Positions 3,237 to 35,358 of a stretch of 64,000 nt of DNA are shown in pieces. The notes below the pieces were generated by a model that was not told the DNA's origin, did no database searches, and saw nothing but the letters and a program-made list of their open reading frames with translations. The first letter of the stretch is position 1, and the number at the start of each line of letters is the position of its first letter. The translations under genes and the position numbers were made by a program. Origin of the DNA: Bacteroidales bacterium KHT7 (GTDB lineage: Bacteria > Bacteroidota > Bacteroidia > Bacteroidales > Bacteroidaceae); contig FNBQ01000005.1 of assembly GCA_900102385.1 (NCBI GenBank), positions 62,001 to 126,000 of the forward strand. Direction: 5' to 3'.

Positions 3237-5327
3237 TTAAAAATCCAAGCCTATCATTGCCGACAGATTACGTCCTGGCTCGGGAACATCTATCAGGCGA
3301 TAGTAGCTTGTGTGGTTGTAATATCGCTTGTTCAGCAGATTGTCTGCATGCAAGGCGATTTTCAGTCTGTTTTTTCCTACCGCAAAGTGTTTGCCTGCCG
3401 ATGCGTTCAGCGTGCAGTAACCGTCGGTAGGCTTTTCGGGCGGAACAATCTCATTCTGCGCGCCCACAACGTGTATGCTGAGCTGCGCAAAGCCTTCGCC
3501 CTTCTTCTCGAACTGATATTTTATGCTCGCATCGCCCGACCACGGAGTAGAGAAGGGTAGAGTGTAGCCTTTCTTCGCACCCGATTTCTGACGGGCATAC
3601 AGATATTCGCCCTTCAGTTCGGCCTCCCAGTGCTTGCCGATGCTGTATGTAGCCTGAGCCTCGAATCCGTAGCGCAGAACTTTGGCTTGGGTGTACTGAT
3701 AGAGTTGCAGCCCCTCAACATAGTCGGCCGTAGGATTCAGATATATATAGTTCGGAAAAAAGTTGACGTAAGGGTCTATCTGTATTGCCAGACGCTTGTC
3801 AGACCAATGTATTCCGGCATCCAATTGATACGATTCTTCGGGATTGAGCGACTTGTTTCCTCGCTCGTATCTGAAAATGTGATAGTTGATGCCGTCGGCT
3901 CCCAGTTCCTTAGGTATAGGCACGCGGAAACTCTTGCCCACGTTAGCCTTCAGCACCCATCCGCCAACCGAATAGTTTATTCCGGCAGACCATGTGATGC
4001 TGTTGAAGTTGCGCGTGGCAGCCTCGGAACGTTGCTTGTAAACCGAGTCGGAAGCCGATACTGGCGTTTTGTACCAGTCGGAATAACTGTGTATGCGTGT
4101 GCGCGAGAAGTCGTAGCGCATTCCGGCGTTCAGCTTTAGATGCTCGCCGATGCTGTGCTTGTCGAACACGAACGCGCCCGTGCTCATCGATTCGAAGTCG
4201 GGAATGATGAAGCCCCAGCCGTCGCGTCGGTTATGCTGATATTCGCCGTTCACGCCAATGTTAAGTGTGTTCTGCTCGCTCAGAATCTTCTTCAGCGAGA
4301 TGGCTGCGGTGTATGTGCTCTTGTCGAACACTCTCTCGTCCGTTCCGTTGGGCTTGGGCATGTAGCCGTGCGAGATAGGCTCAGAACATTCCTTGCGGTG
4401 ATTGTTCTGGTATGCCAGACGGATGTCTAACGCCGAGTTTTCGCTTTGCCAAGCCGTGTGGCTGAGCACCTTCAGATGGTTCACGCTCTGTAGCGGCAGG
4501 TCGATGTCGCGACGGCTCTTGTCGTAGTCGATGTTGGATAGTCGCACCTCAAGACCATGCGCGTTGGCAAAGAATCCGCTTCGCGAATAGTTGTCGGATA
4601 TACGCACGTCGGTGTGGAAGTTATATCCGGCATAGCCAAGCGTGATGCTTCCGTCGCGCTCCGTTCCGGCAGTGTTGCGCAGTCGCTGCTTGTGCAGTTT
4701 AATATAGTACGAGTAGTACTGAATACTGTCTGCCGGAATCTTGTAGTCGGCATAGTCGATGAGCGTGGTGTTGGCACGATAGAAGAAACACCCTATGCGT
4801 CCGCCAATCTTTGCCGACAAGCCCATCTGCTCGTTGTTTGTGCGGCCAAACACCTGCACTGCTCCCTCGAAAGGCTTCATCGGAATGTGGTTGGTGTAGA
4901 GGCTCAGCACGCCGCCTATGGCATCGCTGCCGTAGAGTAGGGCAGCCGGACCTTTTATCACCTCAACGTGGTCTATGGCAAACTGGTCAATCTCCAGTCC
5001 GTGGTCGTCGCCCCACTGCTGTCCCTCGTGCTTTATGCCGTCTTCGGTCACCGCCAGACGGTTGAATCCCAAGCCCCTTATTGTTGGCTTAGACTGTCCG
5101 CTGCCAATGCTCATAGCCTTCACGCCCGGCACTCCCTCGAGTGTCTGCATAAGGCTTCCGGCAAAGTTATTCTCCAAAAAGTCACGGTTCACCTGCACAC
5201 TCGTCTGCGACGAACGCATAAGGTAATCTCTCTTCGATTGCCCTGTTATGGTTACGTCGTCGAGTGATACAATAGTATCGTTGGCAGCGCACGCAATAAG
5301 CGTCGCAGCCAATAAGTTTGCTATCAT
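3237..5327 (-). CDS. TonB-dependent outer-membrane receptor, probably for a metal or chelate
   Basis: A 696-residue protein with a short leader. A plug domain spans roughly residues 20-135 (VQVNRDFLENNFAGSLMQTL, VEVIKGPAALLYGSDAIGGV are classic plug motifs) and a 22-strand barrel follows, ending in the usual terminal aromatic (MIGLDF). TonB receptors import iron chelates, cobalamin, sugars or metals across the outer membrane using inner-membrane energy. It has no N-terminal carboxypeptidase-like extension, unlike sugar-importing SusC proteins, and no SusD partner nearby, which argues against glycans. Its neighbours are a His/Cys-rich membrane protein upstream and two His-rich lipoproteins downstream, pointing to a transition metal such as zinc or copper. 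That last step is inference. Confidence 0.88.
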   Translation of the reverse strand: MIANLLAATLIACAANDTIVSLDDVTITGQSKRDYLMRSSQTSVQVNRDFLENNFAGSLMQTLEGVPGVKAMSIGSGQSKPTIRGLGFNRLAVTEDGIKHEGQQWGDDHGLEIDQFAIDHVEVIKGPAALLYGSDAIGGVLSLYTNHIPMKPFEGAVQVFGRTNNEQMGLSAKIGGRIGCFFYRANTTLIDYADYKIPADSIQYYSYYIKLHKQRLRNTAGTERDGSITLGYAGYNFHTDVRISDNYSRSGFFANAHGLEVRLSNIDYDKSRRDIDLPLQSVNHLKVLSHTAWQSENSALDIRLAYQNNHRKECSEPISHGYMPKPNGTDERVFDKSTYTAAISLKKILSEQNTLNIGVNGEYQHNRRDGWGFIIPDFESMSTGAFVFDKHSIGEHLKLNAGMRYDFSRTRIHSYSDWYKTPVSASDSVYKQRSEAATRNFNSITWSAGINYSVGGWVLKANVGKSFRVPIPKELGADGINYHIFRYERGNKSLNPEESYQLDAGIHWSDKRLAIQIDPYVNFFPNYIYLNPTADYVEGLQLYQYTQAKVLRYGFEAQATYSIGKHWEAELKGEYLYARQKSGAKKGYTLPFSTPWSGDASIKYQFEKKGEGFAQLSIHVVGAQNEIVPPEKPTDGYCTLNASAGKHFAVGKNRLKIALHADNLLNKRYYNHTSYYRLIDVPEPGRNLSAMIGLDF

Positions 5328-29440: not shown

Positions 29441-31702
29441 TTATATATTCAGAAGTTTCGACACATCGGCTGGATTTAAAGCCCATTCGTAGTTGTAAAC
29501 CTCGTCGGCTTCTTCGTACTTTTCTGTTCTGACGATATTCTGAGCCTTTGCTTTCATTTCAATAAGTTCGCCAACTGTAAGCTTTGCTTCTAGTTTTCTG
29601 AGCAAAGACTCTATCGATTCATTGTCTGCTCCGCGCAGAGTCTGTGCCGTGAAAGGCATCTCAAGCCATACAATTTCGCGTCTTGCTACATCGAGGATAC
29701 CAAAGACAAGTCCTTTTGACAGATTTCCTTCGCTAATCCTGACCATGTGTTGCACGCACGATGGGTCGTATGCTACACCGTTCTTTTCTGAAATCTTCAT
29801 TTCGTAGGCAGATTTCATCCAGCCCACAACGAGGTTTGGCGATAGTGAGCCGCACGAGTAAGCGTTGCAGGTGAATGTGACGTATTTTGCCCCAGCTGCA
29901 TCAAGTTCAGGCAGTGACAACTCTATGTATTCGGCTGTGCCAACCATTTCGGGAATATGCTGGATGTCGCCCGAATGTTTTGCTCCGACGCAGTTCAGAC
30001 TGTAAAAGGCGCACTCGGCAGTTTTGTTGTTTGGTAGCGCGATGCGACAACTCAAATCCATGTCGAGCCATTGTGCGTGCAAGCCTTTTCCCCATTGCAG
30101 AAACAGACGCACGGCATCGCCTTCTATAGGGAATCGCGTACCCATTAAGGCGCACGATGTGTCTTGAATTGTTGTCGACCGGTTGCCCACATTTACTGGA
30201 ATGCTGAACAGTTTAGGGTCGATGAAAACACTTTTTGCATCGTTTTTTTGCTTAGCAAAGCGACGCTCCATTGACGCTTTGTAGATGTTGTTCACATCCT
30301 CAACCATCTTTCGACGCGAATTTTCGTCGTATAGATTGAGCAGTTTGTTCGGCTCAATTTTGTATGTCACACCAGTTATTGGATGCGCCAATCGGGTTTG
30401 ATTAATGTCGAAATACGATTCTGCTGCATTGCCGAGCGATAAGAGCAGACGTGCTGGAAGATTGTCGGCAACGTTATCGAAGGCTTCAAGAACTTTGTCG
30501 CTGCCGAAGCGCAGCATTGATGCAAACAGACTGCGTGCGAAAAGCCCCGGACGCTCCTTGAGCAGTGCTAGAGTCTTGTCGGCATTGTTTTCCTTGCGAG
30601 CCTTGTCTACAGTTCCCAGCCATGTTTCGTAGTCGTTTTTGTAGAACACATCGAGTATTTCAGACAAATGCTCCATTCCTTTCTTTCGTGAATATTCTCC
30701 TAATCGTAGGGCGCGAATCATTCTGACCCACATTCCTCGCTTCGGATTCATATTCTCTGCGGCTTGCTTTGCCGTCATCGGAATGGCATTGAGCCATCGG
30801 GCTACGCAAAGGCAGGTCTTTCTGTCGTATTTCAGCATCAGTTTTTGTTTCATTACCTTTGCGGCATCGGCACTTTTGTCGAGTGGTCCGAACATGTGAT
30901 GGTACATTTTCTTCGAGTGTGTCATCAGTGTTTTCGGCTCAATAATCTGCACGAATCCGGTTTTCTTGTACCAGAGGTATCGAAGCACGTCGGTTGGTGT
31001 TTTAAAGAACCTTGTCGCTTCATCACCTTTACTTTTCTCTATCATCGCTTCAATTATGAGCATTGTTGTTTCCTTCATGCCGATGTTTGTATCTTCTGAA
31101 AGCGGAAACTCGTTGAGCATCAGTTTGAGGGAATCTTTCTGTGTCTCGTCGAGTGGGGTGACAGATGAAAGAAGAGAGTCGAAAATTTTCTTCAAGTCGT
31201 GTCGTGTGAACAATCTGAGTTCTTTCTGTTTGCTTGTCTGACCTTTATACACAAAATTGCTCGTCTCGAACGGAGTTCCACAGAACGGACAGCCGTTGTA
31301 TCTCTCCAACGGAAATATTCCTTCGGGAATGAAGCAGCCGCACGGAAGTGTTGTTCCTTTGAATAAGTTTTCCATACCGAAAATGTTGGCAATCCATGTA
31401 ATCAGATGGTCGGTGTTCGTCTCTTTTGTAGGCTTGTCCCAGCCTTTTACGAGCGATGCCCAGTTAAGATTTACGCCCATAATATTGTTTATGCACTCAA
31501 CAGTATCGGCAAGTGTGTCGGTAGAAACCATGTCGAGTGCATGAAGCAGTTCTTCGCTCAAACTGAAGCCGTTTTCCATAAGACGAGCGGCGAATGCTCT
31601 TGTCATTACTGATGTGTTTGACTTCATGTCGATGTCCTCTCGCTTGATGTCGAGGAACAGTGCGCGATAGCGCAGGGCTACTTTTGTCAGATTCTTGTTC
31701 AT
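29441..31702 (-). CDS. RtcB-linked protein with zinc ribbon, helical core and TerD-like domain
   Basis: Start chosen at 31702 (MNKNLTKVALRYRALFLDIK), 753 residues; the frame is open 48 bases further. A helical N-terminus is followed by a CxC-x14-CxxC zinc ribbon (C121, C123, C138, C141). A long helical region has the motifs TPTDVLRYLW (near 236), LRLGEYSRKKGMEHLSEIL and LKERPGLFARSLFASMLRFG, which recall long TerD-linked proteins of ter-type stress systems. The C-terminal third (about 555-690) is TerD-like: RLFLQWGKGLHAQWLDMDLS with the DxD calcium-site pattern, HSGDIQ, and GTAEYIELSLPEL. No signal peptide, so cytoplasmic. It lies between RNA modules upstream and a tRNA-like RNA downstream, in the same direction as rtcB. 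An RNA-binding scaffold comparable to Ro60/TROVE proteins is an inference. Confidence 0.7.
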   Translation of the reverse strand: MNKNLTKVALRYRALFLDIKREDIDMKSNTSVMTRAFAARLMENGFSLSEELLHALDMVSTDTLADTVECINNIMGVNLNWASLVKGWDKPTKETNTDHLITWIANIFGMENLFKGTTLPCGCFIPEGIFPLERYNGCPFCGTPFETSNFVYKGQTSKQKELRLFTRHDLKKIFDSLLSSVTPLDETQKDSLKLMLNEFPLSEDTNIGMKETTMLIIEAMIEKSKGDEATRFFKTPTDVLRYLWYKKTGFVQIIEPKTLMTHSKKMYHHMFGPLDKSADAAKVMKQKLMLKYDRKTCLCVARWLNAIPMTAKQAAENMNPKRGMWVRMIRALRLGEYSRKKGMEHLSEILDVFYKNDYETWLGTVDKARKENNADKTLALLKERPGLFARSLFASMLRFGSDKVLEAFDNVADNLPARLLLSLGNAAESYFDINQTRLAHPITGVTYKIEPNKLLNLYDENSRRKMVEDVNNIYKASMERRFAKQKNDAKSVFIDPKLFSIPVNVGNRSTTIQDTSCALMGTRFPIEGDAVRLFLQWGKGLHAQWLDMDLSCRIALPNNKTAECAFYSLNCVGAKHSGDIQHIPEMVGTAEYIELSLPELDAAGAKYVTFTCNAYSCGSLSPNLVVGWMKSAYEMKISEKNGVAYDPSCVQHMVRISEGNLSKGLVFGILDVARREIVWLEMPFTAQTLRGADNESIESLLRKLEAKLTVGELIEMKAKAQNIVRTEKYEEADEVYNYEWALNPADVSKLLNI

Positions 31703-31728
31703 TGTTTTAAAATCATAAAAGGTAATTA

Positions 31729-31788
31729 GCCGGCATCGGCAGGGTCGCATAGTCTGCCTCAGAGAAGGAGCGAGAAGTATGCCGGCTT
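31729..31788 (-). ncRNA. Stem-closed RNA module before the TerD-like gene
   Basis: AGCCGGCAT at 31729-31737 and ATGCCGGCT at 31780-31788 form a 9-base closing stem. Inside, on the minus strand, GGCAG pairs with CTGCC (loop of 11). It ends 26 bases before the chosen start of the TerD-like gene, so it could be a separate small RNA or a 5'-leader structure controlling that gene. Confidence 0.5.
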
Positions 31789-31850
31789 TTGACCTTGTTA
31801 ATAATCAGAAAGATGAGGTAATTGAACTGCTAAACGAGTTTCTTGTATAA
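31779..31850 (+). CDS. Possible 23-residue ORF antisense to the RNA cluster
   Basis: ATG at 31779 is preceded by AAGGAG, nine bases away, and encodes MPAFDLVNNQKDEVIELLNE plus three residues before TAA. The peptide looks protein-like, but it overlaps a stem module and has no known relatives. It could be a gene remnant. Low confidence. Confidence 0.2.
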   Translation: MPAFDLVNNQKDEVIELLNEFLV

Positions 31851-31891
31851 ACTATGGAAGTAAGCTGTTCTTGACCTTATCTTCTTTTAGA

Positions 31892-32084
31892 GGCGCGGGG
31901 CAGAATCGAACTGCCGACAAATGAGGTGAAGTATGTGCCGATTGTCCTTGCTTTTTTTTAATATTAGAAAAATCACTTAATCAGTTCCACTGGAACTACA
32001 GTCCAATTTACGCTAATCGGATTCTCTGTATGGAAGAAAATTTCTGCACAAAATTCATCGCTCTACCAGCTGAGCTACCGCGCC
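31892..32084 (-). tRNA. tRNA gene with an insertion of about 121 bases in the anticodon loop
   Basis: Minus strand, 193 bases. The tRNA body is perfect: acceptor GGCGCGG with CCGCGCC (7 of 7), U8-A9, D arm GCTC-AGCTGGTA-GAGC with G18G19, and T arm GGCAG, loop TTCGATT, CTGCC. The anticodon stem is ATGAA with CTCAT (4 of 5), and the variable loop is TTGTC. The loop holds 128 bases instead of 7. It starts TTTTGTGC and ends GGCACATACTTCAC. Removing about 121 bases so that the Ts join gives TTTTCAC: U33, anticodon UUC (Glu), A37, C38. GTGC and GCAC flank the junctions and can pair. Inside, CCGATT pairs with AATCGG, and AGTTCC-AGT-GGAACT forms a hairpin. It is too short for a typical group I intron. 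Not a normal translating tRNA unless processed. Confidence 0.75.
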
Positions 32085-32091
32085 GTTTTTT

Positions 32092-32176
32092 GAAAGACGG
32101 AAAGTACGAAATCTATCTAAAAAGCCCGTAAAGGTTTTGAGCCAATCAGTAGTAAGACTTGTTTTGTCCGTCTTTC
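32092..32176 (-). ncRNA. Stem-closed RNA module between two tRNA genes
   Basis: GAAAGACGGA (32092-32101) and TCCGTCTTTC (32167-32176) form a perfect 10-base closing stem around 65 bases. It fills the space between the tRNA-Phe-like gene and the insertion-bearing tRNA. I cannot fold the interior as a tRNA. It may be a processing spacer or an independent small RNA. Confidence 0.5.
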
Positions 32177-32180
32177 TTAG

Positions 32181-32253
32181 TGGAACCTCGTGGATTCGAA
32201 CCACGTTCTCGGGATTTTCAGTCCTGCGCATACACCATGTCTGCCAAGGTTCC
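32181..32253 (-). tRNA. tRNA-Phe(GAA)-like gene
   Basis: Minus strand, 73 bases. Acceptor GGAACCT with AGGTTCC (7 of 7), discriminator A, no encoded CCA. The T arm is CGTGG, loop TTCGAAT, CCACG. The anticodon arm is CAGGA, loop CTGAAAA, TCCCG (4 of 5 pairs, A-C mismatch), so the anticodon is GAA (Phe) with A37. The D arm is weak (GCA with TGC, loop GACATGGTGTA) but keeps A14 and G18G19; positions 15 and 21 are not the usual bases, and the variable loop has only four bases. It may be functional, but these oddities and its place inside the RtcB locus make a repair substrate or decoy possible. Confidence 0.75.
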
Positions 32254-32258
32254 AAAAA

Positions 32259-32342
32259 TGGTCTCGTGGAGGAGGGATTTGATCCTTCTCATCTGTGTCA
32301 GAAAAACCACCGTTTTGCTATCGTGTCTCTGCTGCGAGACCA
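32259..32342 (-). ncRNA. Degenerate tRNA-like stem-closed RNA next to rtcB
   Basis: Minus strand. TGGTCTCG and CGAGACCA form a perfect 8-base closing stem. Near the 3' end, GAGAAGG, loop ATCAAAT and CCCTCCTC resemble a T arm with an extended stem. The 5' part can alternatively form the hairpin GTCTC-GCAGCA-GAGAC. No anticodon arm can be recognised. It lies 69 bases after the rtcB stop, as the first of the RNA modules. A tRNA mimic or decayed tRNA are both possible. Confidence 0.5.
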
Positions 32343-32410
32343 TTATTAAGATATCTGTTTGCAAATTTCGAGGTGTCTTGTTTCAAATCATGGGACAACA
32401 TCGAAAATTT

Positions 32411-33583
32411 TTATCCCTTAATTACTGCCACCGGAAGTAGTCGTGTTTTTATTTTTACCAAATCCAGTTCGTTTGCAATAACTTCTTCAATGTTCTTGTA
32501 TGCTCCCGATGCCTCTTGCATATCGTCTTGACAATGAATGGCATGAACTATGCCCTTGGCTTCGAGTCGCGCAACTTCTTCTGCCATGCTGAGCGACTGG
32601 ATTGCCGCCTTGCGCGAGAGCACTCTGCCTGCGCCGTGAGAGCACGAACAGAACGATTCGGCATTTCCAAGTCCCTCGACAATATACGATGCCGTGCCCT
32701 GCGAGCCGGGAATGATGCCCACTACTCCTTTTCGGGCAAGCGTTGCGCCCTTGCGATGTACAAATACGTCGTGTCCGAAGTGATTCTCGAAGGCGGCATA
32801 GTTGTGCGCGATGTTTATCATCGGCTCAAATTCTATGCCTTTAAGCGAGTCTGCAAGGACTTCTTCGATGCGCATCATCATAAGACGGCGGTTGCAGAGA
32901 GCGAAGTCTACGCAATACTTCATTTCTTCCCAGTACATGCCGAACTCCTTTGTGCCGCGCGGCAGAAAAGCCAGATTGATGTCGGGCGATACAGCCGAAT
33001 GCCATTGGGCGTTGAGCTTCTCTGCCATGTTGTTGTAATATGCCCCGACCCTTGCCCCGAGGTTGCGCGAACCCGAGTGAATCATTATCCACAGATTGTC
33101 TTCCTCATCTTTTTGCAGTTCTATGAAGTGGTTTCCGCCGCCAAGCGTGCCAATCTCGTGCAAAGCAGAGTGCTGCCGAGTCTTAACCACCGCCATCTTG
33201 TCGATGTCGTAGCCTTGCGGCAGATATCTGGCGTCTTGTGCCTCTTCGTGGTGGCTCATTCCCAGCGGAATGCGTTGTCGGATGCCATTTATTATCTCGT
33301 TTTTCAGAATGTCCGACGGAATGTCGCCCACCTTCCAGTTTGTCTTTACGGCGCACATTCCGCAGCCGATGTCAACTCCCACGGCATTGGGAACAACGGC
33401 GTCTTTGCATGCCAGAACTCCGCCTATTGGCATTCCCTTTCCAGCGTGCACATCGGGCATTATGGCAAGGTGGTGGAAGAGGAACGGCAAGGTGGTGAGG
33501 TTCTCAATCTGCTGCATTGCCGATGACTCAACATTATCCGTCCAAATCTTTACTATTCGATTATTTATAGTCTTAATTTCCAT
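32411..33583 (-). CDS. rtcB: RNA-splicing ligase RtcB
   Basis: A 390-residue protein with the complete RtcB motif set. DIGCGM carries D71 and C74 (Mn site), GGGNHF has N151 and H152, IHSGSR has H169, INIAHN has H260, and CSHGAGR has H316, the expected guanylylated histidine. RtcB joins RNA ends bearing 2',3'-cyclic phosphate or 3'-phosphate to 5'-OH ends, using GTP and Mn2+. In archaea and animals it seals tRNA exons; in bacteria it repairs RNA cut by ribonuclease toxins. This short form (about 390 residues) lacks the insertions of longer RtcB proteins. No RtcA or archease gene is nearby. It is the first gene of a minus-strand unit continuing into tRNA-like RNAs and a TerD-like protein, and it diverges from a WYL regulator. 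Confidence 0.95.
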   Translation of the reverse strand: MEIKTINNRIVKIWTDNVESSAMQQIENLTTLPFLFHHLAIMPDVHAGKGMPIGGVLACKDAVVPNAVGVDIGCGMCAVKTNWKVGDIPSDILKNEIINGIRQRIPLGMSHHEEAQDARYLPQGYDIDKMAVVKTRQHSALHEIGTLGGGNHFIELQKDEEDNLWIMIHSGSRNLGARVGAYYNNMAEKLNAQWHSAVSPDINLAFLPRGTKEFGMYWEEMKYCVDFALCNRRLMMMRIEEVLADSLKGIEFEPMINIAHNYAAFENHFGHDVFVHRKGATLARKGVVGIIPGSQGTASYIVEGLGNAESFCSCSHGAGRVLSRKAAIQSLSMAEEVARLEAKGIVHAIHCQDDMQEASGAYKNIEEVIANELDLVKIKTRLLPVAVIKG

Positions 33584-34314: not shown

Positions 34315-35358
34315 ATGCCAGCAAACAAAAATGCGCTTATCCGTTATAAGACGATAGACAACTGCCTGCGCAACAGATATCGCCGATGGACGCTCGATGA
34401 CCTTGTAGAGGCGTGCTGCAACGCCATTTACGATATGGAGGGCATCAGCAAAGGCGTGTCGGTTCGTACCGTGCAGGGCGATATTCAGATTATGCGTTCG
34501 GACAAGCTGGGCTACAATGCGCCCATCGAGGTGTACGACCACAAATTCTATCGCTATTCCGACCCCGACTATTCGATAACCAACATGCCAATGTCGCAAA
34601 ACGACTACGAGGTTTTGCAAGAGGCGATAGACATGCTCCGCCAGCTCGAAGATTTTGAACAGTTTGCCGAGATGACCGATGTTGTGCGCCGCTTGCAAGA
34701 CAAACTTGCCATAAGCAAGAACCAGCGCAAGCCGATAGTCCACTTCGACAGCGTGCCCGACCTGAAAGGACTCAAACTGCTCAATCCGCTCTATGGTTAC
34801 ATCGTGCGCCGGCAGACGGTAAGGCTGTTGTATCAGTCGTTCAACGCCTCGTCTCCAACCGAATATGTTCTGTTTCCTTATCTTCTGAAAGAATTTCGCA
34901 ACCGCTGGTTTCTGTTTGGCGGCCGCTCGTCGGATATGCATATTTTCAATCTGCCATTAGACCGCATCGTGAGCGTTGAGCCTTCGGATGTTCCATTCCG
35001 AGAGAATCCCGAATTCAACCCGGAGAAATTCTTCGATGATGTCATTGGTGTTAGCAAGAATATAAAAAGCACGCCGCGTCGGATAAAGTTCTGGGCATCA
35101 GCCGAGCAGAGCAAATACATCAAAACCAAGCCGATACACCATTCGCAGAAACTGAAGAGCGAAAATCCCGACGACGGCAGTTGTATCTTCCAGATAGAGG
35201 TCGTTGTCAACTTCGAGATGTATTCAGTTTTTATGAGTTACGGTCCGGGAGTGCGTATTATCTATCCTCGCAACGTCGTAGCGTATATGCGAGATATGCT
35301 TCGCAGGGCTGCCGACTCGTACGATGAGGCTGATATCGAAGAATCTTCTGAACTTTAA
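34315..35358 (+). CDS. WYL-domain transcriptional regulator
   Basis: Start chosen at 34315 (MPANKNALIRYKTIDNCLRN); 347 residues. The N-terminal winged-helix region is RRWTLDDLVEACCNAIYDME with VSVRTVQGDIQIMRS. The WYL domain lies at about residues 155-235, with NPLYGYIVRRQTVRLLYQSF and FPYLLKEFRNRWFLFGGRSS, then LPLDRIVSVEP; a WCX-like C-terminal domain follows. WYL domains sense ligands, often nucleic acids or nucleotides, and control DNA-damage, phage-defence and CRISPR functions. It is divergent from rtcB, whose control by a ligand-sensing regulator has a parallel in RtcR of Proteobacteria. That it controls rtcB is inference. Confidence 0.85.
   Translation: MPANKNALIRYKTIDNCLRNRYRRWTLDDLVEACCNAIYDMEGISKGVSVRTVQGDIQIMRSDKLGYNAPIEVYDHKFYRYSDPDYSITNMPMSQNDYEVLQEAIDMLRQLEDFEQFAEMTDVVRRLQDKLAISKNQRKPIVHFDSVPDLKGLKLLNPLYGYIVRRQTVRLLYQSFNASSPTEYVLFPYLLKEFRNRWFLFGGRSSDMHIFNLPLDRIVSVEPSDVPFRENPEFNPEKFFDDVIGVSKNIKSTPRRIKFWASAEQSKYIKTKPIHHSQKLKSENPDDGSCIFQIEVVVNFEMYSVFMSYGPGVRIIYPRNVVAYMRDMLRRAADSYDEADIEESSEL

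Follow-up and report, generated by a model that had tools for sequence, protein, structure and literature searches.

On the minus strand of the window, by which the whole analysed stretch of 64,000 nucleotides is meant, a gene with the acceptor, D and T arms of a tRNA lies next to a gene for the RNA ligase RtcB, and a long insert takes the place of its anticodon loop. The question raised by this locus is whether the insert is an intron, cut from a tRNA precursor whose halves RtcB would then join, as a preliminary description of this DNA had proposed; whether it marks a tRNA gene that has been broken; or whether it is a functional part of an RNA of another kind.

The tRNA body and its interrupted anticodon arm

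The RNA gene comprises the parts given below, where R1 denotes a covariance model built from A4, an alignment of 31 such RNAs of relatives (T-type RNAs) from which the window copy was deliberately left out.

31892..32084, minus strand: tRNA-shaped RNA (T-type), complete gene of 193 nt (sequence; R1 88.1 bits, E=1.8e-23)
32078..32084, minus strand: acceptor stem 5' strand GGCGCGG, 7/7 pairs with 31892-31898
31892..31898, minus strand: acceptor stem 3' strand CCGCGCC (sequence)
32060..32075, minus strand: D arm GCUC-AGCUGGUA-GAGC (sequence; R1 alignment)
32055..32058, minus strand: anticodon stem 5' strand AUGA, partner 31921-31924 (R1 alignment; 95.0% paired in relatives)
32043..32049, minus strand: core helix h2 5' strand GUGCAGA, partner 31935-31941, 6/7 paired (alignments)
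32039..32042, minus strand: core internal loop, AAUU side (AUU invariant in A4)
32034..32038, minus strand: core helix h1 5' strand UUCUU, partner 31945-31949, weak in the window
31950..32033, minus strand: apical loop, 84 nt, most relatives having a much shorter one; not repeated elsewhere in the genome
31928..31944, minus strand: core 3' strand, with CAA, h2 UCGGCAC and the motif AUACUUC (alignments)
31899..31915, minus strand: T arm GGCAG-UUCGAUU-CUGCC (sequence; 100% paired in relatives)

The claim that the acceptor, D and T arms are intact is borne out: 7/7, 4/4 and 5/5 positions pair, respectively, and U8-A9 and the GG of the D loop are present. The anticodon stem consists of four pairs (AUGA/UCAU), with an A.C pair as the would-be fifth. 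The 128-base loop first described is correct if that A.C pair is counted; otherwise, a four-pair stem encloses approximately 130 nt. Similarly, the GTGC/GCAC helix reported at the junctions is real, but is part of a seven-position helix, GUGCAGA/UCGGCAC, of which 6/7 positions are paired. The proposed 7-base loop with anticodon UUC hangs on the splice points chosen, and receives no support from relatives, in which the flanks of the insert, as judged by eye, contain no constant anticodon.

R1 identifies the RNA as its sole match at E<=1 in the 64 kb, and the RNA gene is real, far beyond chance. In a search of its own genome, the same model returns the window copy at only 36.3 bits, as a cut-down stretch that ranks below 32 ordinary tRNAs; folded alone, the RNA is mildly more stable than its shuffles (z -1.75, with 8/200 shuffles as stable). 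The suggested search for a tRNA gene in the unspliced form had a divided outcome, in that neither ARAGORN in standard mode nor the Rfam tRNA model calls the gene, but ARAGORN with introns allowed reports a tRNA-SeC whose anticodon would be UCA, and not a tRNA-Glu. Several T-type RNAs of relatives are called plain tRNAs by Rfam, the window T-type not among them; Rfam holds no family of their own for T-type RNAs or for the hairpins described below. The view that the insert is not a group I intron stands, as cmscan with 4,227 Rfam families finds no group I intron in the insert, either at gathering or at E<=5. The apical loop was also considered as a mobile repeat, and this was rejected, since it has no second copy in its own genome and no copy in one genus relative.

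The core in relatives, with and without a tRNA

A scan of the collection found 421 stretches encoding relatives of the 753-aa protein whose gene follows the RNA. The best 80 of these 421 constitute loci L036-L115, which by title are mostly from Prevotella, Prevotellaceae, Bacteroidaceae and other Bacteroidales. Protein matches occur in 18/301 genomes of the family, and seven distant homologues, at 49.9-51.7% protein identity, belong to another family of the same class.

In 32 RNAs, those of the 31 relatives and the window, the anticodon arm of a tRNA body is broken by a common module, which runs through a seven-position helix, AAUU or a near variant, a second helix with its loop, C(C)AA, the return strand of the helix, and AUACUUC or similar. 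The T-type candidates had numbered 33, one of which (L044_426, an M type as defined below) was dropped. In the alignment of related loci that had been called for, A4, 93.2% of cells form standard pairs, as compared to 36-39% with the partner slid, and the insert is conserved, with changes on both sides of a pair in 25/30 pairs across the RNA, in at least one sequence each. In these relatives, the acceptor and T helices, whose uncompensated mutation the preliminary description had named as grounds for refutation, are 99.5% and 100% paired; the corresponding values for the D helix and anticodon stem are 97.6% and 95.0%. The core helix is 87.1% and the inner helix 73.1% paired, in counts that, for A4 as for the hairpin alignment A5 below, are inflated at h2 by the picking of members with patterns requiring at least five paired h2 positions, and are off by one column at h1 where the internal loop is one base longer or shorter. 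Both-side changes are found in 7/7 pairs of h2 among relatives. Taken alone, the core has 82.9% of its cells paired, versus 26-48% slid; its count of both-side-changed pairs was reached by 27/500 shuffles, and no other measure was reached by more than one. Unaided, RNAalifold recovers four of the helices (acceptor, D, T and core), and not the anticodon stem or the inner helix.

The supposed intron is the conserved part of the RNA. Furthermore, the earlier argument against a decaying pseudogene gains force from the relatives, in which the acceptor, D, anticodon and T helices are 95-100% paired with both-side changes. These comparisons support the assignment of the window RNA to a functional RNA type as opposed to a decaying tRNA.

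Applied to 88 sources, R1 yields 37 matches of at least 79.8 bits in 30/88 sources, and all others score at most 63.0. The 37 lie in 23/80 loci (best 80 of 421), in 6/7 distant loci and in the window; 31 of them are training sequences, the others being the window RNA, L036 4411-4532, and RNAs of L077, L078, L081 and L083. Locus L204, which contributed to the training of neither R1 nor the hairpin model R2, carries two T-types (102.1 and 88.1 bits with R1), and up to three occur per locus. Because no T-type at this level is found in 57 of the best 80 of 421 protein loci, some of which extend less than 600 nt upstream, the tRNA form appears to be optional. All 301 family genomes match R1 at E<=0.001, as ordinary tRNAs swamp the search; therefore, among the 12 candidates scored per genome, only those above 70 bits were used. 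Such T-types occur in 3/301 genomes, and the protein gene follows in all three, in one of which (G047) it is cut by the contig end and its first codons were recognised by eye.

Several variants of these RNAs were observed. In M-type RNAs, the core replaces the D and anticodon arms, next to an acceptor stem and a T arm; examples are L036 4116-4203 and RNAs of L044, L047, L077, L105 and others, at roughly 31-49 bits with R1, some of them recognised by eye. In L077, L078, L081 and L083, T-types of 187 nt contain, by eye, two tandem cores in one tRNA body, while L114 (about 4466-4772) contains, in addition to the 37, a T-type that appears by eye to carry an inverted-repeat insertion of approximately 220 nt, MITE-like, in its anticodon arm.

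The same core also occurs in hairpins that contain no tRNA, of which the window holds the following.

31814..31879, minus strand: tRNA-free hairpin H1, same core (R2 47.8 bits)
31718..31796, minus strand: tRNA-free hairpin H2, same core, its end 15 nt short of the inferred start of the protein (R2 28.2 bits)
32096..32172, minus strand: possible divergent third hairpin H0, weak (pattern; only 7.6 bits, with R2 filters off)

The ends of the hairpins are held by the outer helix of the core, and the hairpins are located upstream of the protein gene. R2 was built from A5, which comprises 29 hairpins, some from genomes that recur among the 80 loci. In A5, 84.6% of cells are paired, compared to 38-48% slid; the count of both-side-changed pairs was reached by 110/500 shuffles, and each of the remaining measures by at most one. 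R2 gives 145 matches at E<=0.1 in 892 kb from 81 sources, two of them in the window. The other 143 lie in 74/80 loci (best 80 of 421), all on the strand of the protein, with none downstream of its start, 142 within 1,100 nt upstream and one at 1,349. R2 has no match in L049 (only 210 nt upstream), L070, L071, L079, L100 or L104, the last two of which have pattern matches nonetheless. In the window's own genome (3.79 Mb), R2 matches H1 and H2 only. Canonical TROVE loci were considered as carriers of this core and rejected, as 0/18 have an R2 match and their R1 scores, of up to 45.5 bits, are below the T-type range. As R2 matches lie upstream of this protein, and are absent from the rest of its own genome and from the TROVE loci, the module goes with this protein.

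In 63/74 loci, a gap of 11-27 nt separates the final hairpin from the first residue of the protein match, which is not always the start codon; a hairpin directly before the start codon could be a cis-regulatory element only. Hairpins are present in 7/7 distant loci (in part training sequences), and in five of these (L131-L134, L136) one R2 hairpin has, by eye, a T-arm-like stretch in its distal loop; among the 80 loci (best 80 of 421), a pattern finds a T arm in the loop of a single hairpin, in L110. The loop of another hairpin, L036 4781-4868 (plus strand), matches positions 1074-1162 of the bacterial 23S rRNA model (70.9 bits, E=3e-18) and is 81-82% identical to the rRNA of relatives; we take it to be a mimic of the GTPase-associated centre. 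As a general trait of the hairpins, rRNA mimicry was rejected, with only L036 above the shuffled controls (1/146 hairpins).

The neighbouring protein, RtcB and the WYL regulator

The genes and elements that surround the RNA are as follows.

29441..31702, minus strand: RING-like/helical-repeat/TerD protein, 753 aa, likely RNA partner (start placed by homologues)
32180..32253, minus strand: tRNA-Phe(GAA)-like gene (ARAGORN; Rfam 53.6 bits; similar in L042, L102, L204)
32260..32341, minus strand: second tRNA-like element (X-type), with a long acceptor stem and T arm (by eye)
32411..33583, minus strand: RtcB RNA ligase (PF01139, E=7.9e-108)
34315..35358, plus strand: divergent WYL-domain regulator (WYL/WCX; associated with T-type loci)

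Along the minus strand, the order is RtcB, X-type element, tRNA-Phe-like gene, T-type RNA, H1, H2 and 753-aa protein; the WYL regulator lies beyond RtcB in the opposite direction. The X-type element has no core, and counterparts were seen by eye in L035, L020/L036 and L204. The tRNA-Phe(GAA)-like gene is present in four cassettes, those of the window, L042, L102 and L204, and two ordinary tRNA-Phe genes elsewhere in its own genome score 68.4 bits as against 53.6 in the cassette. In L020/L036, a tRNA array is found downstream of the protein gene on the other strand, with eleven members according to ARAGORN (L020) and ten according to Rfam (L036).

The link to RtcB that had been suggested from its adjacency holds well beyond the window. 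In 68 loci with at least 2,000 nt upstream, a T or M type is present in 16/16 RtcB-adjacent loci versus 11/52 others (P=8.9e-9), where M stands for weaker R1 matches that lie upstream of the protein, only some of them inspected by eye, and L114 counts as T by eye; the T-type alone is present in 13/16 versus 9/52 (P=5.4e-6). Similarly, in 61 loci with at least 3,500 nt upstream, the WYL regulator accompanies 15/19 T-type loci versus 6/42 others (P=1.7e-6). The P values for both genes take no account of phylogeny, and the loci include several near-copies of one another. The distant loci, at approximately 50% protein identity, have the same cassette, with a T-type in 6/7. In G023, one other genome of the genus, RtcB and an X-type element are present, the T-type and hairpins were not found, and the protein is reduced to a 43-residue match; the RNA and the protein are missing together. 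Ten neighbouring ORFs at 24.5-40.9 kb contain no Pfam match to an RNA cyclase (RtcA) family.

RtcB is matched in 14/18 genomes with such loci, and not in G121, G596, G597 and G600; the 18 are 16 genomes without RtcB beside the locus together with G000 and G116, and G063 and L114 are the same locus, counted twice. Since four of the 18 lack an RtcB match, some genomes retain the RNA although they have no RtcB, insofar as draft assemblies can show this (G121 is 99% complete, and two of G596, G597 and G600 are close relatives of each other). The tRNA-splicing endonuclease family PF01974 is found in 0/8 genomes, with four archaeal controls positive. The tRNAs of the window's own genome include tRNA-Glu(UUC), two Glu(CUC) and the two ordinary tRNA-Phe.

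The 753-aa protein is likely to be the partner of the RNAs. It is similar along most of its length to NF041916, the MXAN_6230/SCO0854 RING family (E=2.2e-40), with a score of 138.6 bits where the curated cut-off is 600; a literature search on the names MXAN_6230/SCO0854 returned no mention of either. When the AF2 model is compared to PDB structures, residues 524-700 match TerD (Z 11-13). The helical-repeat part (155-500) was modelled with 45 sequences (A2, from 44/80 loci and the window) at a mean pLDDT of 83.6. Its widest cover is by human Ro60, with 9nen at Z 6.8, rmsd 9.9 over 263/346 residues and 9nfa at Z 6.6, rmsd 11.4 over 265/346, and its top Z is that of another repeat protein (7.8 over 134 residues); the whole model gives 9l5y at Z 6.3 over 303 and 9nen at Z 5.1 over 312 residues. 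As Z values below 8 can reflect a mere shared arrangement, the predicted likeness to the Ro60 fold is suggestive, a hint. The protein has no Pfam TROVE match, hhalign comparison of its profile with TROVE gives probabilities of 0.3 and 0.1 (no signal), and a TROVE search of its own genome has no match; the protein set A1 contained 14 sequences (L020, L025, truncated L029 and remnant L035 left out) and the TROVE alignment A3 contained 15. Foldseek returns nothing at E<=0.001 for either protein model, and the protein sequence against solved structures gives nothing useful (best E 0.25).

Possible roles and known counterparts

The explanation that we favour, and consider probable, is that the window RNA is a two-module RNA, a tRNA body with a docking core for the neighbouring protein, in an RNA-repair operon of the rsr-yrlBA-rtcBA type. 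The first module would be a complete tRNA-like body whose ends are natural tRNA ends. The second, which replaces the anticodon loop, would be a protein-docking core (h1, AAUU/C(C)AA loop, seven-position h2, UACUUC), bound by the adjacent RING-like/helical-repeat/TerD protein much as Ro60 binds the Y stem. The RNA would then be a stable scaffold with a role in repair, and its tRNA body would be the effector end, recruiting a tRNA-handling factor or acting as a decoy for it, be it RtcB, a nuclease or a tRNA enzyme. By analogy, the WYL regulator may stand for RtcR, the RING-TerD protein for Rsr and the T-type RNA for YrlA.

This explanation is favoured because the tRNA body and the core alike contain pairs in which both partners have changed, because the window RNA and the two T-types of L204 are detected by models made without them, and because the same core recurs in tRNA-free hairpins tied to the protein gene. 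The association of RtcB and WYL with T-type loci, the persistence of T-types (6/7) and hairpins (7/7) at approximately 50% protein identity, the protein gene that follows the T-type in 3/3 family genomes above 70 bits, and the joint absence from G023 of the RNAs and all but a remnant of the protein point the same way, as do the parts of YrlA, which form the same circle cut elsewhere, and the Ro60 structures that cover most of the helical domain. Conversely, it is weakened by the lack of a TROVE match and of an Rfam YrlA match and by the differing core sequences; by the 57/80 loci without a T-type at R1 level; by the weak h1, unusually long apical loop and 36.3 bits genome-wide of the window copy; and by the counts of both-side changes that 27/500 (core) and 110/500 (hairpin) shuffles reached.

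Other explanations of the same locus give the RNA a different task. It could be a decoy, an uncuttable tRNA mimic with its anticodon replaced that is held on the protein by the core and occupies anticodon nucleases or tRNA-targeting toxins. A decoy of this kind is in keeping with the setting of RNA repair, where RtcB and a WYL regulator are neighbours, and with the 23S rRNA-like fragment displayed by one L036 hairpin, and a role of this type has been proposed for YrlA in Salmonella (PMC7790460). However, the rRNA mimic is 1/146 hairpins, and we regard the decoy as rather unlikely; it overlaps the two-module explanation, from which it differs only in the job of the tRNA body. It is more improbable still that the hairpins and tRNA-like stretches act only in cis, as one leader by which the protein gene is controlled, and that no separate RNA exists: the place of the last hairpin, 11-27 nt before the protein match, is what a leader would have, yet complete tRNA bodies, with as many as three T-types and several hairpins to a locus, seem excessive for one.

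The intron with which the question began, where an endonuclease would cut around the insert and RtcB would join the halves into a tRNA, draws on the perfect tRNA body, on the position of the insert in the anticodon loop, and on the adjacency and statistical linkage of RtcB. Against this stand an insert whose sequence and structure are both conserved and which is found again where there is no tRNA, flanks without a constant anticodon (by eye), the 4/18 genomes with such loci where RtcB is not matched, the absence of PF01974 from 8/8 genomes with all four archaeal controls positive, and a normal tRNA-Glu(UUC) already in the genome. The window RNA is thus probably not an intron-bearing tRNA, an RtcB-joined intron being highly improbable. 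Lastly, a tRNA pseudogene broken by insertion is scarcely credible: the long extra loop of the window copy and the inverted repeat seen by eye in that of L114 are what an insertion might leave, but each of the four tRNA helices has pairs in which both partners have changed among the 31 relatives, and the supposed insertion contains a conserved core.

The two-module explanation can be extended, tentatively and with more doubt than confidence, to a second, independent Ro60/Y-RNA-like system, in which a RING-TerD protein has its own Y-type core and the tRNA mimic is the un-permuted counterpart of YrlA, a circular permutant. Its target mimics would be interchangeable (whole tRNA, acceptor-T minihelix, T arm in a hairpin loop, one 23S rRNA fragment), and would steer repair by RtcB or trap RNA-cutting toxins. 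On the two-module explanation itself, a tRNA mimic that works with an RNA-binding protein and RtcB would be known in more than one topology, and named strains such as Prevotella ruminicola KHT3 (L105) would be suited to testing what Y RNAs do in RNA repair, a role that is poorly understood. The locus is also a warning about tRNA finders: where introns are allowed, they will take RNAs of this sort for bacterial tRNAs with introns, the error made here by ARAGORN.

Among known systems, the intron-containing tRNAs of archaea and eukaryotes share with the window RNA an insert in the anticodon loop, and differ in that the insert here is a conserved module that is found without a tRNA and PF01974 was not found. 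The MXAN_6230/SCO0854 RING family resembles the window protein over most of its length, far below the 600-bit cut-off. A closer counterpart is the Salmonella rsr-yrlBA-rtcBA operon, which, according to PMC7790460, comprises an RNA-binding protein, a tRNA-mimicking RNA, a second Y-type RNA, RtcB and a regulator. The window cassette has the same parts list, with the RING-TerD protein for Rsr and WYL for RtcR (CARF/sigma-54); PMC4012209 describes WYL domains as predicted ligand-binding regulators and a CARF domain in RtcR. Further papers state that YrlA tethers Rsr to PNPase (PMC8394870), and that ROT/TROVE with a tRNA-like partner is a platform for RNA repair (PMC7824862). In YrlA of Salmonella, the tRNA-like domain might compete for a nuclease (PMC7790460), and the same source places YrlA in the neighbourhood of RtcB in some bacteria, a neighbour that the window RNA shares. 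YrlA sits beside a TROVE (Ro60/Rsr) gene, in contrast to the window RNA, whose neighbour has no TROVE match.

The Rfam YrlA model has no match at gathering, nor at E<=5 in 31700-32480. The same model matches 15/18 TROVE loci (L138-L155) at E<=0.5, all below the gathering score, and Rfam may therefore under-report YrlA in this phylum. Like the window RNA, YrlA (RF02553) possesses a T arm, a D arm and an acceptor-like stem, and its core of h1, internal loop, 7-bp h2 and UAC is likewise present in the T-type, although the core sequences differ. The hairpins of distant loci with a T-arm-like distal loop are nearer to its arrangement. The Rfam YrlA alignment runs h1, loop, h2 (7 bp), CUAC, T arm, closed acceptor, D arm, h2, loop, h1, and YrlA is reported to superpose on tRNA as a circular permutation (PMC11472068). 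The ends of YrlA pair in the Ro60-binding core stem, whereas those of the T-type pair in the acceptor stem and its core is closed by a loop. Followed around the circle, the parts of the T-type and of YrlA come in the same order; in the T-type, the break lies at the acceptor stem, and the outer helix is where the circle is closed.
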